Source of the DNA: Physocladia obscura
Lineage: Eukaryota > Chytridiomycota > Chytridiomycetes > Chytridiales > Chytriomycetaceae
Reading direction: 5' to 3'
DNA: 12,683 bases
NCBI GenBank assembly: GCA_027596945.1
Contig: JADGJH010000983.1
Coordinates: forward strand, 1 to 12,683
Notes under the pieces: model-generated
The model's database searches: none
What the model was told of the DNA's origin: nothing
Seen by the model: only the letters and a program-made list of their open reading frames with translations
Shown here: positions 2-12,638 of the stretch, piece after piece
How positions within the stretch are numbered: position 1 is the stretch's first letter
Layout of the letters: every line of letters starts with the position of its first letter
Made by a program: the position numbers and the translations under genes

Positions 2-1828
2 TATCTTTGTGTTTCTTTGGCACTGTCTTGAATTGACAGAGTTGCTCCAAATACATTAGGAATCTACCTATTGGGATTATTTAAACAAACAGCGGGCATA
101 TAGTTCAAATTGAATATAAGAACAACGTCATTATTGAAGTCAACAAGCACTATCAAGAGTCATTTTAGTATCTTAACAACTCCATTTAGAAACCAAAACC
201 TCATTAGTCTGGTCTTAGAGGCCTTCCAAATATACAAGGGAGATGATGCAATAGAGAGCACATTCAATCAAGTGACTCAATCTGTATTCTTCAACTGCGT
301 CAAAGGAGCAATTGTTGATACATTTTATGAACCATCAGAATCAGCCGATTTAAAGAGTTTCAATATTCAAAAATGCCATACAGCATGTTTGACCATCAAG
401 AATGAAATGTCTTGGTCTGTGTTTAGCATTTTTGATGAAGTCAAGCTGTACTGTGGTAAATTGAGAACAGGATTCTATTATGTTGAAACTGAGAACACGT
501 TTCCACTAAGAGGCACTTGTTGGTATTCAGCACCCATACTACGATATTGTCAAATGATTGGAGTGCCACTCAAGATTGTCTATGAAATCATTCCAAGTAA
601 CACTCTCAAAGCAGATTACTTCAATGATTTTGTAAAAAGGATATATGACAAGAGCGGCAATAATGCAAAGCTGATGATTAACTGTTTTGTAGGATGTTTG
701 AATAAAAGAAGTGATAAAAAGCAGACAGATAGATTCACAATGAGTTTGGATGATGCAGTTTGATACTTTTTCTCAAGCAACAATACAGTGTATTCATGCA
801 TCTTGCAGGAGCCAAAGCTTTATCATATTTCCATAAAGAATGACACACTAAAGCATTTCAACACAATTCCAATATACTGGCAGGTGATTGATAATGGCAA
901 TATGATGTTGCATCAATTAGCAATGAAAATGGGTGGTAGAATTGTCAAGCTAAAGACTGATTGCGTGGTAGTTGAGGATGGCAATGATGTCGAGTGTAAA
1001 CCAGGTATTGGTAATTATTGTCTAGAAGCATTACCATAAGAGTACAAAGTATCTGAGCCATTCAAGAGTACATATGCATTTCAGCTTGACAATAAAGACT
1101 GGATTCTAACAGATAATAGATTAGAGCGTCAGTTATTAACTGGAATGACAGGTATGGGGAAATTGACAGAAGTCAGAGAAACCATTAAAAAACTGGAGCT
1201 TGGTTTGTTTGTGCTATTAGCAAGTACAAACAAGGCAGCAAGATTGATAAATGGTCAGACAGTTCACCATTTCTTTCATATTGACAATAACAACAAGTGT
1301 AACTTGAAGGAAGCAGTAAAGGCAGCCAGCAGATATCAGTACATTTTCATTGATGAAGTTGGCATGTTGAGAGCAGCAATTTATGAAATCTTGTATTATG
1401 TGAAACTGCAAACAAAGGTCAAGTTTGTGTTAGTTGGTGACTATAAACAGTTGGGAGGAGTAGAGAAAAACAATAAAAAATACAATTACCTCAGTACCCT
1501 AGCATTAAAGGAGCTGGTTGATTACAGTATAACAAAGCTCTTGATTAATCATCATTCAGACAACTCAGTGACAGTGCTATTTGACAGTATGTACACATTG
1601 AATCCAAGTGACTTTGACAATAAGCACTCGTTTACTCAAGTCAATCTAGCGTACACTCTTGGTATTCCTGATGGGGTGGTACCAAGAGGATATGAGATAG
1701 ACCACATCAAGCCAAGATGTCAACATACCACTGATGATGGCTTCAAGAACATCAATGTTTATTGCAATCTGCGACTGATTTCAAGACAGGAAAACAACGA
1801 GTTGGGTCAAAAATTGCAATCGTCGTAA
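2..1828 (+). pseudogene. Broken family-B DNA polymerase / SF1 helicase / HNH-like polyprotein, 5' partial
   Basis: One frame (codons starting at 2, 5, 8...) reads as protein from the left edge to TAA 1826-1828. It is interrupted by TGA 29-31, TAG 101-103, TGA 761-763 and TAA 1037-1039. Up to about 1,040 it resembles the palm of a divergent viral-type family-B polymerase: KLMINCFVG (near 670-695) fits motif B (KxxxNSxYG), and LKTDCVVV (near 950-975) fits motif C with the first Asp of DTDS replaced by Lys. The next section is an SF1 (Pif1/RecD-like) helicase: Walker A GMTGMGKLT (near 1,141-1,167) with Leu before the usual Thr, a Ia-type TNKAARLINGQTVHHFF, Walker B YIFIDEVGML, and motif III VGDYKQLGG. 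Later helicase motifs are short or missing. The tail from about 1,690 has IDHIKPR followed by spaced Asn residues, HNH-like. Family assignment of the polymerase rests on pattern memory; the helicase call is firm. Confidence 0.7.
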
Positions 1829-8021: not shown

Positions 8022-8586
8022 TCATCGCTGGTCATCACCAAACAGTTTTTGAACGCGTTTAAGAATTGAGTCTAGTGAAAAAAAGTAAAGCGAAGGGTTA
8101 AATTCAAAACCACAATACTATTAATAAACTGGAGAATTTGAACCTTTAGCCGGATCATATGGATGGTCTTTCGATGGAATCTCGAGCACTGTTGGAAATG
8201 CTTGGTGGTATTCGTCGAGCATCGAACGAATATCATCAGCAACCTGAAAAAAAAAAAAACTTAATTTTACGTTATGAATAATATGTCCGAAAGAAACATA
8301 CATGCTGATTGATAAGAATGATTCCGATGTCTTTACGTCTCGTAAACTCAATGAAAGATTCTTCAATAGTGGGTAGCGTTGTTTCTGGTTGGTGTTTTTT
8401 GTGAATATGTTTTCGATGATGTGCCATAGTAAAAAGTGTGGTGATTACGAAACTGGAATCTACAACGAGAAAGTTTGCCTTCTGTTTGGAGTCAACGTGA
8501 CCAATACCTGCAAGGAGAAGACCAGTCACAGTGTCTTCATCCCCGATCACAGCAATCAACGAACGATCTTTTTGATAGACGCTCAT
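8022..8586 (-). CDS. VMA7: V-type proton ATPase subunit F
   Basis: Exons on the minus strand: 8586-8454, 8384-8302, 8243-8144, 8071-8022; 366 nt, 121 aa plus TGA (yeast Vma7 is 118 aa). Subunit F sits in the central rotor stalk of the V1 sector with subunit D and couples ATP hydrolysis to proton pumping into vacuoles. Family signatures are in order: [21 protein letters not shown] (residues 9-29), [30 protein letters not shown], then [17 protein letters not shown] and the basic C-terminal KRVQKLFG. Two of the introns hide inside open sequence: reading through 8453-8385 would insert 23 foreign residues, and reading through 8143-8072 would replace the conserved C-terminus with GSNSPVY; splicing restores both. 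Start ATG 8586-8584 gives a normal N-terminus. It lies 79 nt from the stop of MDE1, same strand. Confidence 0.95.
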
Positions 8587-8602
8587 TTTTTTTTTTTTTT
8601 TT
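8587..8602 (-). promoter_or_regulatory. A16 tract immediately before the VMA7 ATG
   Basis: On the coding strand sixteen A residues sit directly before ATG. The whole spacer to MDE1 is 79 nt, so this tract should be in the 5' leader. A-rich leaders bind poly(A)-binding protein and favour initiation in yeast; effect here is inference. Confidence 0.45.
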
Positions 8603-8665
8603 GACAATGCTACCAAGACAAAAAAACAATATATTCATCGTTATTGCAGATTCTTTTTGGTACAC

Positions 8666-9913
8666 TTATTTGTGGCTGGCATTTTGGCTGTGGTCGTCAG
8701 CAGTGTGGGCATGTTCATCGTGTTTATGACTGCAAATATCCTTGTATTCACTATCTTCAGGGATCAGTTCAGGATCTAACCCTGCCAGCTTCATCTTGAC
8801 ACCAATTTCGAACAAATAATCGTAACATTCTGTCATGGACTTTGCTGAAAAATGAAGGATTAACTTTGGCCTAAAAACAAACGGAAGTGTAAGGACATAA
8901 CAAACCTTTCTGCCAGTTTTCACCCCACACATAAACTCCATGGCGTCTAACAAGAACGGCATTCGCGTCAGGGTGCTTGATCATTGCCTTTTGGATAATT
9001 TATTCAAAGAATTAACAAACGAAAACAAAAAAACCTGCTCCATACGATCCTTTAGATCTTCTTCTTCAGCGGTATTTTCGATAATTGGAATAACTAATGT
9101 ATCGTAATATTTGAGACTGTTTTTCGTCGACCCAATTCTAATCCCCTTGATCATTTCCTGATGCGTAATCTTGAAAACATCGCCATTCCACAACAGTGTG
9201 GCCATAACAGCATGTTGCGAATGAGTATGCACACAAGCTCCGGCGTTGCGCAAATTATATGCGTTGAAAAAAAGTGGCGTGCATTGCGACATTTTCCAAC
9301 CCTGGTTATTTTCAGTGAAATGGTTAAGGGAAAGAAACGTGTATCGAAACTATATTTTAATTTTTTTCTAGAGTAACCTTTTCGACAGGTGGGGCTCGAA
9401 CTACGGATTGAGTTGGCGTGAGTACGAAAAGATCCTCTGCTTTGATACGTTCCTTCTGCACTCCCGATGGCGCAATATAAATGTTGTCGTCTAACTTAAT
9501 TGTAATTCCGCCTCTATAAACAAGATAATCATTAAAAATATGGAATGCAATAGTGATGATCAATAGACAATCGTTATTCAACCATCGTCGCAATATTTGT
9601 ATTTAGTTTGCTAGCAATGCTGCTCAGACAGACAACTCCAATAACTCACCCAGTGCCTGTGACCCATCCATGAGTATACATAAGGCGACACAATTCTGGA
9701 ATCAGATTGGCCTAGCAGTTTCGATTGTTATTAGATTTAACGGTTAGATTATTGCAAACTGTCAACTTCCCATTCGAAAGAAAACATCAAATCTAGATTC
9801 TTCATTACACTTACCGGATGTTCTGGATTCGTAGATGTGATCAAGCTGGCGGTACTCTTATGCTTCTTTGCCGCATTCGGTCCTTTCTCTGAAATCCCAT
9901 CTTTTCGCTTCAT
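8666..9913 (-). CDS. MDE1: Methylthioribulose-1-phosphate dehydratase
   Basis: Exons on the minus strand: 9913-9815, 9711-9650, 9513-9378, 9301-9035, 8987-8906, 8844-8666; 825 nt, 274 aa plus TAA. The enzyme (MtnB in bacteria, APIP in animals) removes water from 5-methylthioribulose-1-phosphate in the methionine salvage pathway, in the cytosol. It belongs to the zinc class-II aldolase fold. Visible features: [20 protein letters not shown] near residues 40-60, [24 protein letters not shown] (104-114), zinc ligands HTH (His124, His126) and His204 in [12 protein letters not shown], and the catalytic Glu148 in HQEMIKG. The N-terminus has a basic stretch (KRK, KKHK). The last 22 residues are unusually His-rich ([20 protein letters not shown]). 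Start ATG 9913-9911 is 66 nt after the NOG2 stop. The bare class-II aldolase fold is shared with other enzymes, but these motifs fit MtnB. Confidence 0.93.
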
Positions 9914-9979: not shown

Positions 9980-12638
9980 TTATTTTCTAGTCAGCCGTTT
10001 CAGGCCAGGAGCACGGATTCGTTTTGCCAACGATGCCTGGCTGATCGGTTTTGCTTTGGATCGCCGCTTGTTCTTCACGTTTGCGTCATCGTAGAAGTTA
10101 ACTCCAACCTTCTTCTTATTTGTCTTCATCCTCTCATCTTTCTGCACACTATCAGATTCGTTACTATCGCTATCTTGAGGAGCTGATGCCAATGCTTGGG
10201 TCGTCTCATTTTCTGAAGCCTCATCATCTTCTGATTCATCTTGTTCTTCAACAACTGCCTTTCGCTTCTTATTGTTGCCTTTCTTTGAAGGTACTTCCAG
10301 CTCAGAAACCTCCGTAGCAGAAGCTTCTTCGCCAACGACATTTCCGAAGATTTCGTCCCAGTCAGTTTCGGCAGATATGGCTGCTTTTCGCTTTGTAACG
10401 GCCTTCTTTTTTGTGGCCTTCTTTGCGACCGAGTCATCAACTTCAGATTCCTCTTCTTCTTCTTGATCAGCATCTACTTTACTATCTTCGTCACGGATTT
10501 CATCTTCCCCGGTTCCTTTCATATCTTCCGGGAGGAACTTCGTCGAAACAGGAATCTTGCTGAAAATCTGTTCGACATGAACATCAGGCTTTGGTGGATC
10601 GTTTTCCTGTTTTATTTGAATAAGCTAGAAAAGGAATGACAAAAAGACGAAACAGTGGTACATACACCAGGTTCAGGCACTTTAATGTCTTCCAATTGAG
10701 GTGGGGTTGTATAATAAGGAATTTTCCCGCGCAGCCAATCGTTCAAGATCATTTTCGCAACAGTTCCCACGTCCGGTTCACCCATTTTTAATAATCGCCC
10801 GCCTTTCTTTGCAAGCTTGGTCAAAAAATCTGTGTGATCTTCCCATTCATGAATATCGTAAGTTCGTTGAATATAGTCCGTGCGAACGCGTTCAAGAAGA
10901 GCCGCAATGTGATCTTCGGGTTGTGTGCAGTTCTCAACTCGGACAACCCCTTTTAAAATAATATCTGTCTCGCTATCGTTGGGATTGGGATACACAATTC
11001 CAGGACAATCTATCAAGTAGATCCGTTTCATGAGTGTAATGTACTGCCAGACTTTTGTTTCTCCAGGAATAGGGGCCACGTTGCAAACTTTCTTGTTTCG
11101 TAGAGTATTAATGATGCTTGATTTTCCTGTATTTGGGTATCCAACAAATCCGACACTGATTTGCTTCTTATCACTGTGGAGGTTGGCAAATTGACGCAGA
11201 AGTTGGATGAGCGAACCCTTTCCAAAAGAATTGGTAATATTGGCATGAAAAGCCAGAGTCGGATATTCTCTAGATAATATTTTAACCCATTTCGCCTATT
11301 CAAATAAAAAATTAGAAGGAAAATATAATTAAATATAGAGGGTAATCGAAAATAATGAAATGTTTGTTCGCAAAACTAAGATCGCCGGCACAGTGAGCAA
11401 CGAGGATACACCTCGGCCAGCCACCTACTCTCGCAGAACGGTAAGAATCGATCGGAGACTTCTCAGAACGAGAAGTAATTCTCCAGGTGAAAACTATATT
11501 ATCTTCCACAGTTGTAACACATAACATGTCGTAGTTGATTGAGAACTCGCAAGACGTGAGTCAGCTTCGTTATTCTCGGCGACAGATATATTGACTTAAC
11601 CGTGGGAAAGCAGGAGAATAGAATGGACACAAGGAAGATTGTGGCGAAATTAATAATACTTACAGTCACCCAAGTCGGGACTAGATCGCATTTGTTCAAA
11701 ACAAATATAAGATGCTTGTGTTTTGCTTCCTTTCGCAGGTGACTTTCAACATTTCGACATCGCGTGCCAATTGGATCTCTTGCGTCCAACACATGAATGA
11801 TAACATCCGAAGAATCGATAACCTGAAAGAATCGAGGGTTTACATTTTTGGGAAGAAACTCACATCAAAACATAAAAATTAGCAAACCTTGTAAAGTTCA
11901 GCCCAAATTCTACGAGATTGGCCCTTGCTGAAGATTGGATCCATTTGCGCAATAGATGCACCAGAAAGTGACTTGTTAGCTAAAAGTGAGCTGTCCTTGA
12001 CAACTTCGTAGCTATCTTGAGAAACCTCGGTTGAGGTAACGAGCTCATCTACTGAGCCAACTTTTAACTTCGGGCGCTTGCGTTGAGCCTTTGGACCGAA
12101 AGTATTTTGGAACGGATCAACTTCAAGCATATGCATACGGGATGTCTTCGTAAGAAAAAATAAAAATAAATTAAACATAAATTTTAAAATAAATAAAAAA
12201 ACGAGAAAAAAAAACCTTGGCCGAATCTTGCAGCAATGACATTGGCAGCTTATTCTGCCGCAACAAGAAAGTGTAGGGATCGTCCGCCTTGTCAGCCATA
12301 GCATCTCGGAAGGCAGCGAGTTCTTTCTGGCCAACAACTCGAGTGTTCTCAAACCACTTTCTGTTTGCGTCAACTCGCGCAACGGCAAATGATTTGTCTC
12401 GAGTTTGAAAAGCTGCTGCTTTGATGATTTCACCGCTCGCATTACGAGTCGCTTTGCCCGACTTCAGCAAATTAATCTGGCGCACCTTTGCAGCATCACG
12501 ATAGAAGTTTGTTCCCTTGGTGTGGATCACATTCTGCAGCCGTCGCTCACCGGCTTGTTGTCCCGATGTCTTTTGCGAAGTTGTATAGAAGGCTCGTCCA
12601 CTTGCCGCTCGGCTCTTCTCTTTCTTGTGAACGCCCAT
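9980..12638 (-). CDS. NOG2: Nucleolar GTP-binding protein 2 (pre-60S assembly GTPase)
   Basis: Exons on the minus strand: 12638-12216, 12145-11888, 11822-11664, 11295-10666, 10624-9980; 2,115 nt, 704 aa plus TAA, all introns in phase 0. Nog2/GNL2 binds pre-60S ribosomes in nucleolus and nucleus and acts as a checkpoint before export. It is a circularly permuted GTPase, and the motifs appear in that order: HVLDARDP (G5-like, residues 237-244), NKCDLVP (G4, 270-276), GYPNTGKSS (G1, 332-340), PGETK (G2, Thr360), DCPG (G3, 376-379). The N-terminal 200 residues include [11 protein letters not shown], usual for the family. Residues from about 530 alternate acidic runs and Lys/Arg runs, ending [10 protein letters not shown], as in nucleolar proteins. 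Length is near human GNL2 (731) and longer than yeast. Intron 3 is 368 nt and hosts a snoRNA. An out-of-frame ATG lies 17 nt before the start (12655). Confidence 0.95.
11358..11607 (-). ncRNA. snR191: H/ACA box snoRNA in NOG2 intron 3, snR191/U19-like
   Basis: The 5' hairpin has lower stem 11607-11598 with 11513-11505 (nine pairs, one bulged C), and upper stem 11591-11580 with 11531-11519. The open pocket carries AGUCA (11596-11592) and GUUAC (11518-11514). H box AGAUAA follows at 11504-11499, 14 nt from the pocket. The 3' guide hairpin has lower stem GUUCUGC/GCGAAC (11439-11433, 11371-11366) and upper stem 11426-11416 with 11389-11379; its pocket carries GAGAGU (11432-11427) and UAGUU (11378-11374). 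Box ACA is at 11363-11361, 15 nt from the pocket, with UUU after it. The pockets fit GUAAC-UA-UGACU and AACUA-UG-ACUCUC, the two adjacent pseudouridine sites in LSU helix 69. Yeast snR191 guides these sites from the NOG2 intron. A U-G pair in the upper stem would be a C/A mismatch on the other strand, which supports minus. Exact 5' end is unsure. Confidence 0.9.
11454..11484 (-). other. Extra hairpin between H box and 3' guide hairpin
   Basis: GGAG, a four-base bulge, then ACUUCUC-GUUCU-GAGAAGU closed by CUCC forms an 11-bp hairpin lying inside the snoRNA. Canonical H/ACA RNAs have two hairpins; this is a third. It could be an internal arm of the 3' domain. Confidence 0.7.

Follow-up and report, generated by a model that had tools for sequence, protein, structure and literature searches.

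A divergent snR191-type H/ACA snoRNA predicted in a NOG2 intron of Physocladia obscura

The window analysed here is a stretch of 12,683 nucleotides from the genome of Physocladia obscura. The third intron of its NOG2 gene very probably carries the fungal snoRNA snR191, which would guide modification of U2258 and U2260 in the large-subunit (LSU) rRNA, judging from guide complementarity, box spacing and the intron of a relative. Most likely, this is a divergent snR191 in its usual NOG2 intron, with a mechanism, targets and a host pairing that are already known. The conserved pairing of snoRNA and host is not put forward as a discovery, because snR191 is reported from NOG2 introns across fungi in the available portion of PMC8476143.

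Host gene and intron

The NOG2/GNL2 gene occupies positions 9980..12638 of the minus strand and comprises five exons (12638-12216, 12145-11888, 11822-11664, 11295-10666 and 10606-9980, all minus) that encode a protein of 698 aa; the exon joins were set by eye and spliced by script, without a gene finder. NOG2 had been named as the host in the initial annotation, and the PDB search agrees: the matches of the GTPase core were chains of Nucleolar GTP-binding protein 2 (best E value 5.8e-126). Scores of 422 bits were obtained with 3jct, 7uqz and 7ug6, which we take to be yeast chains, 419 bits with 6lss, presumably the human chain, and 386 bits with 8pv1, presumably the Chaetomium chain.

The host intron (11296..11663, minus) is the third of the gene, is 368 nt long, lies in phase 0 and is bounded by GTAAGT...TAG. 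The remaining three introns of NOG2 measure 70, 65 and 59 nt, and the exceptional size noted at the outset holds within this gene; the range of 46-136 nt that was given for introns elsewhere is a figure of the initial annotation. Reading the intron as coding sequence was rejected, as the exon 3 frame enters the 368-nt intron and meets a stop at 11499. The first intron (12215-12146, minus), whose boundaries were placed by eye, opens with GT followed by a T run (GTTTTTTTTT), which is an odd 5′ splice site.

Elsewhere in the window, Pfam matches were obtained for four of the ten frames scanned, the NOG2 exon counted. Downstream of NOG2 and on the same strand lie a frame with an ATP-synt_F match (8272-8634, minus; V-ATPase subunit F type) and one with a class II aldolase match (8981-9349, minus). 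An open frame on the plus strand (1040-1828) was matched by the profiles AAA_19 (41.3 bits), AAA_30, PIF1 and Viral_helicase1; it resembles a helicase fragment from a mobile or virus-like element, perhaps together with the adjoining frame 104-763 (plus), for which a Pfam scan gave no match.

Structure of the predicted snoRNA

The predicted snR191-type H/ACA snoRNA spans 11358..11607 (minus; about 250 nt), with its ends inferred from the boxes; all positions below refer to the minus strand. The lower stem of the 5′ hairpin is built from a left arm CCACGGUU (11598..11605) and a right arm AACUGUGG (11506..11513), whose eight pairs, one of them G-U, all form. Inside this stem, the left guide AGUCA (11592..11596) is complementary to UGACU of helix 69 and the right guide GUUAC (11514..11518) to GUAAC, with U2258-A left open between them. 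From the first base of the right guide to the H box AGAUAA (11499..11504) the distance is 14 nt; ATAATA at 11502 is a second fit to ANANNA. Folding predicts an extra hairpin (11453..11485) after the H box and ahead of the 3′ hairpin.

When guides and boxes are held open, the 3′ hairpin folds with a lower stem of GUUC(U)GC (11433..11439) and GCGAAC (11366..11371). The left guide GAGAGU (11427..11432) is complementary to ACUCUC and the right guide UAGUU (11374..11378) to AACUA, with U2260-G left open, and the upper stem and loop (11379..11426) lie directly between the two guides; in both hairpins, each guide abuts its upper stem. The ACA box (11361..11363) lies 15 nt from the first base of this right guide and 3 nt short of the inferred 3′ end. 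The order of predicted hairpin, H box (ANANNA), predicted hairpin and ACA, up to this inferred 3′ end, is that of an H/ACA RNA, and the distances from pocket to box (14 and 15 nt) lie within the 14-16 nt criterion for the class. The two-pocket H/ACA snoRNA first proposed for this interval, with a lower stem closing each pocket, is recovered in its guides, boxes, stems and spacing.

Folding is among the results that speak against the prediction. The snoRNA folds only modestly better than its shuffled versions, with z-scores of -1.58 for the whole, -1.48 for the 5′ hairpin, -1.21 for the middle hairpin and -2.81 for the 3′ hairpin. Folded alone, the two 3′ guides pair almost wholly with each other, and keeping guides and boxes unpaired carries a penalty of 6.3 kcal/mol. 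The structure folding that had been proposed as a check returned the hairpins, at z-scores of only -1.21 to -2.81 and with the 3′ guides paired to each other.

Target site in helix 69

The pockets were matched to the conserved helix 69 sequence, with U2258 and U2260 numbered as in yeast. With the core GGGAGUAACUAUGACUCUCUU, the 5′ pocket forms 5+5 and the 3′ pocket 6+5 pairs, all Watson-Crick; by this complementarity to conserved helix 69, the guides would fit LSU U2258 and U2260, the two neighbouring uridines to which they had been assigned from the outset. For animal 28S genes, PMC3774820 gives the sequence GGGAGTAACTATGACTCTCTT.

In P. obscura itself, helix 69 would read GUAACUAUGACUCUC, on the assumption that it is conserved. 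The target is taken from conservation because LSU and 5.8S rRNA were not found in the assembly: a helix 69 pattern with up to two mismatches, a 5.8S family search and a sarcin-ricin pattern with one mismatch each gave no match there. The rDNA is probably missing from this assembly (21.76 Mb in 1222 contigs). The helix 69 pattern was also without a match in the viral contigs and in the genome that contains the relative L031 described below.

Chance expectation

The search grammar consisted of a box, a spacing of 13-16 nt and a closing stem of at least four pairs beside the pocket, with both pocket orders allowed. With pocket thresholds set to the observed values, none of 20,000 dinucleotide-shuffled introns contained both pockets; taken singly, the U2258 pocket (at least 10 pairs) occurred in 196 of the 20,000 and the U2260 pocket (at least 11 pairs) in nine. 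When the real intron was held against 100,000 shuffled targets, 12 gave a double pocket with G-U pairs allowed and none with Watson-Crick pairs only. Relaxation to nine pairs for each pocket gave one double pocket in 20,000 shuffled introns and 128 in 100,000 shuffled targets.

Under the relaxed grammar, both strands of 31 records (245,839 bases) yielded three matches, namely the window, its copy L030 and L018, the last of which is weaker (3+6 and 4+6 pairs) and has the opposite pocket order. Single pockets numbered 32 and 8 in these records, the window and L030 included. In the P. obscura genome, the snoRNA is present as a single copy by DNA search. A motif common to the window, L031 and the Rfam consensus, which was picked after all three sequences were in view, had one match in the 21.76-Mb genome, the 368-nt NOG2 intron, and its reversed control had none.

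These counts bear on the reading that the length of the intron is accidental and its pockets and boxes are chance matches. The guides are indeed short (5+5 and 6+5), the folding z-scores are modest and single pockets are common, the 5′ one arising in nearly one in a hundred shuffles. The double pocket is nevertheless absent from all of the shuffled introns at the observed thresholds and from all Watson-Crick comparisons with shuffled targets, the G-U comparisons yielding the 12 cases given above, and an independent snR191 match is found in the intron at the same position of L031. We regard a chance origin as scarcely credible, and an snR191 snoRNA as the preferred reading.

Covariance models

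The Rfam search that had been proposed as a check on the initial annotation stays below the cut-off for this sequence. When the intron was scanned alone (E value up to 10), the only match was snR191 (RF01263) on the correct strand, at 11.2 bits and an E value of 3.3, far below the cut-off of 46; the matched part comprises 21 bases of the inner middle hairpin (11476-11456, minus; model positions 107-127). At E values up to 10, the intron was not matched by the SNORA74 (U19) model. A scan of the whole window (E value up to 5) returned four matches, none of them inside the intron, and the snR191 search of the P. obscura genome gave no match, but its controls were equally silent, which leaves that search uninformative. 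The failing score against 46 is treated here as a limit of detection and not as a defining feature of snR191. Because the cut-off is missed, kinship to snR191 rests on intron position, pockets and an intermediate relative.

An independent relative

This relative is one of two loci returned when genome contigs of bacteria and archaea were scanned; scans of viral contigs found no NOG2 relatives. One locus, L032, shows 39% identity over 55 query residues. The other, L031 (NYXK01000235.1, 107,036 bases), is a eukaryotic, intron-bearing NOG2 gene. The record is filed as Deltaproteobacteria MAG isolate CPC1; the contig is probably fungal and misbinned, because an intron-containing eukaryotic NOG2 with snR191 lies on it. 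The NOG2 proteins of L031 and P. obscura are 71% identical after the intron (143 of 202 residues) and 47% identical over 257 columns before it.

A 329-nt intron of L031 interrupts the gene at the same codon boundary and in the same phase as the 368-nt intron of P. obscura; this comparison of intron position covers these two genes, the yeast NOG2 position lying outside it. The L031 intron was matched by the Rfam model of snR191 along positions 1-273 with an E value of 4e-8; the score of 43.0 bits narrowly misses the cut-off of 46. Pocket order and the right guide GUUAC are common to P. obscura, L031 and the Rfam consensus; in the same sequence of the three, the H box spacing is 14, 14 and 14 nt, the ACA spacing 15, 14 and 14 nt, the 5′ pocket 5+5, 5+5 and 4+5 pairs and the 3′ pocket 6+5, 4+4 and 4+4 pairs. 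The 3 nt that follow ACA in all three are equal because the ends were chosen so. An alignment of NOG2 introns from related fungi had been proposed as a check; the comparison with L031 supports the initial annotation, with boundary, phase and pocket order in common and near-equal spacings.

Other details set the sequences apart. Compared with the Rfam consensus letters, the 5′ lower stem of P. obscura has three pairs changed on both sides and one pair changed on one side; one of the three both-sided changes falls within the five pairs marked by Rfam and two in the stem extension made here. The 5′ lower stem of L031 has two mismatches, and its H box AGAUUG breaks ANANNA at the last base. The 5′ upper stem is much longer in P. 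obscura, where 73 nt separate the guides, than in L031, where 46 nt do. The best local similarity of the two introns covers the block from GUUAC to the H box (19 bases aligned, 17 identical) and was equalled by 23 of 5,000 shuffles and by five of 1,376 pieces of the P. obscura genome; taken by itself, the similarity between the introns is weak.

An H/ACA snoRNA unrelated to snR191 might have settled in the same intron and been selected for the same helix 69 targets, and the mere 11.2 bits from the snR191 model and the short similarity to the L031 intron would suit such an origin. Against it stand the host gene, intron boundary and phase shared with L031, which Rfam recognises as snR191, and the same pocket order, block from GUUAC to the H box and spacing; we consider an unrelated guide very improbable and retain an orthologous snR191 as the favoured explanation. 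The earlier proposal that snR191 and NOG2 have stayed together gains from the 43.0-bit match in the same-position intron and falls away as a discovery, since the pairing is described in the available portion of PMC8476143.

Proposed function and origin

By the known H/ACA pathway, the intron would be spliced out and debranched, and trimming by exonucleases would leave some 250 nt of RNA for assembly with Cbf5, Nhp2, Nop10 and Gar1. The 5′ pocket would then offer U2258, and the 3′ pocket U2260, to Cbf5 for pseudouridylation. In the genome, the DKCLD domain of Cbf5/dyskerin was found as two adjoining pieces on contig C7; seven Fungal_trans matches were also found, as well as six Chitin_synth_1 matches on three contigs, both of which are indicative of a fungus.

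The NOG2 core of P. obscura scores alike against the yeast and human chains (422 and 419 bits), whereas that of L031 leans towards the fungal ones (352 bits versus 287 bits for 6lss). Set beside each other, these scores hint at an early-diverging lineage, through one protein. Only tentatively, and with the balance somewhat against it, can it be suggested that the sequence is of early-diverging, non-Dikarya origin, that snR191 has resided in the NOG2 intron since before Dikarya, and that the extra hairpin is equally old and has a role of its own.

Comparison with known systems

A divergent member below the Rfam threshold is added here to an unusually stable pairing of snoRNA and host. Together, the P. 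obscura and L031 members could deepen the snR191 model, by which more fungal genomes could be annotated, and the set is useful for exploring what keeps this guide in NOG2 with so few exceptions.

For human U19 (SNORA74), the difference is the absence of a model match in the P. obscura intron, as given above. U19 sits in another host gene. The likeness is that one RNA guides both equivalent uridines, U19 being described as the human counterpart for both sites in the available portion of PMC2584109.

In the fungi, the presence of snR191 and its ties to the host are on record in the portions available of three papers: orthologs are present in all Saccharomycotina (PMC4937481), the gene has been lost in Naumovozyma dairenensis and has moved in Kazachstania africana (PMC4202332), and in two Candida species the NOG2 introns are too short for snR191, which is encoded elsewhere (PMC5033589). 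The main text of the Neurospora snoRNA paper (PMC2780460) names neither snR191 nor NOG2; for snR191 in early-diverging fungi, no title besides PMC8476143 was found among the matches listed. Removal of the yeast NOG2 intron is reported to cause a growth defect that the intron rescues, with NOG2 mRNA and protein unchanged (PMC10667330, in the part available), and one suggested reason for the stable pairing is that a 60S assembly factor and the guide for its rRNA are expressed together (PMC8476143, likewise).

From snR191 (RF01263), the P. obscura RNA differs in its longer 3′ guides (6+5 versus 4+4 in the Rfam consensus and in L031) and in the one middle hairpin found, versus two in the Rfam structure line. 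It resembles snR191 in its pocket order, the right guide GUUAC, the H box spacing and the extra hairpin material after the H box. The likeness extends to the NOG2 intron as host (PMC8476143 and PMC4937481, as far as available) and to both targets, yeast snR191 being listed for Ψ2258 and Ψ2260 in a table of PMC8307265, in the portion available.
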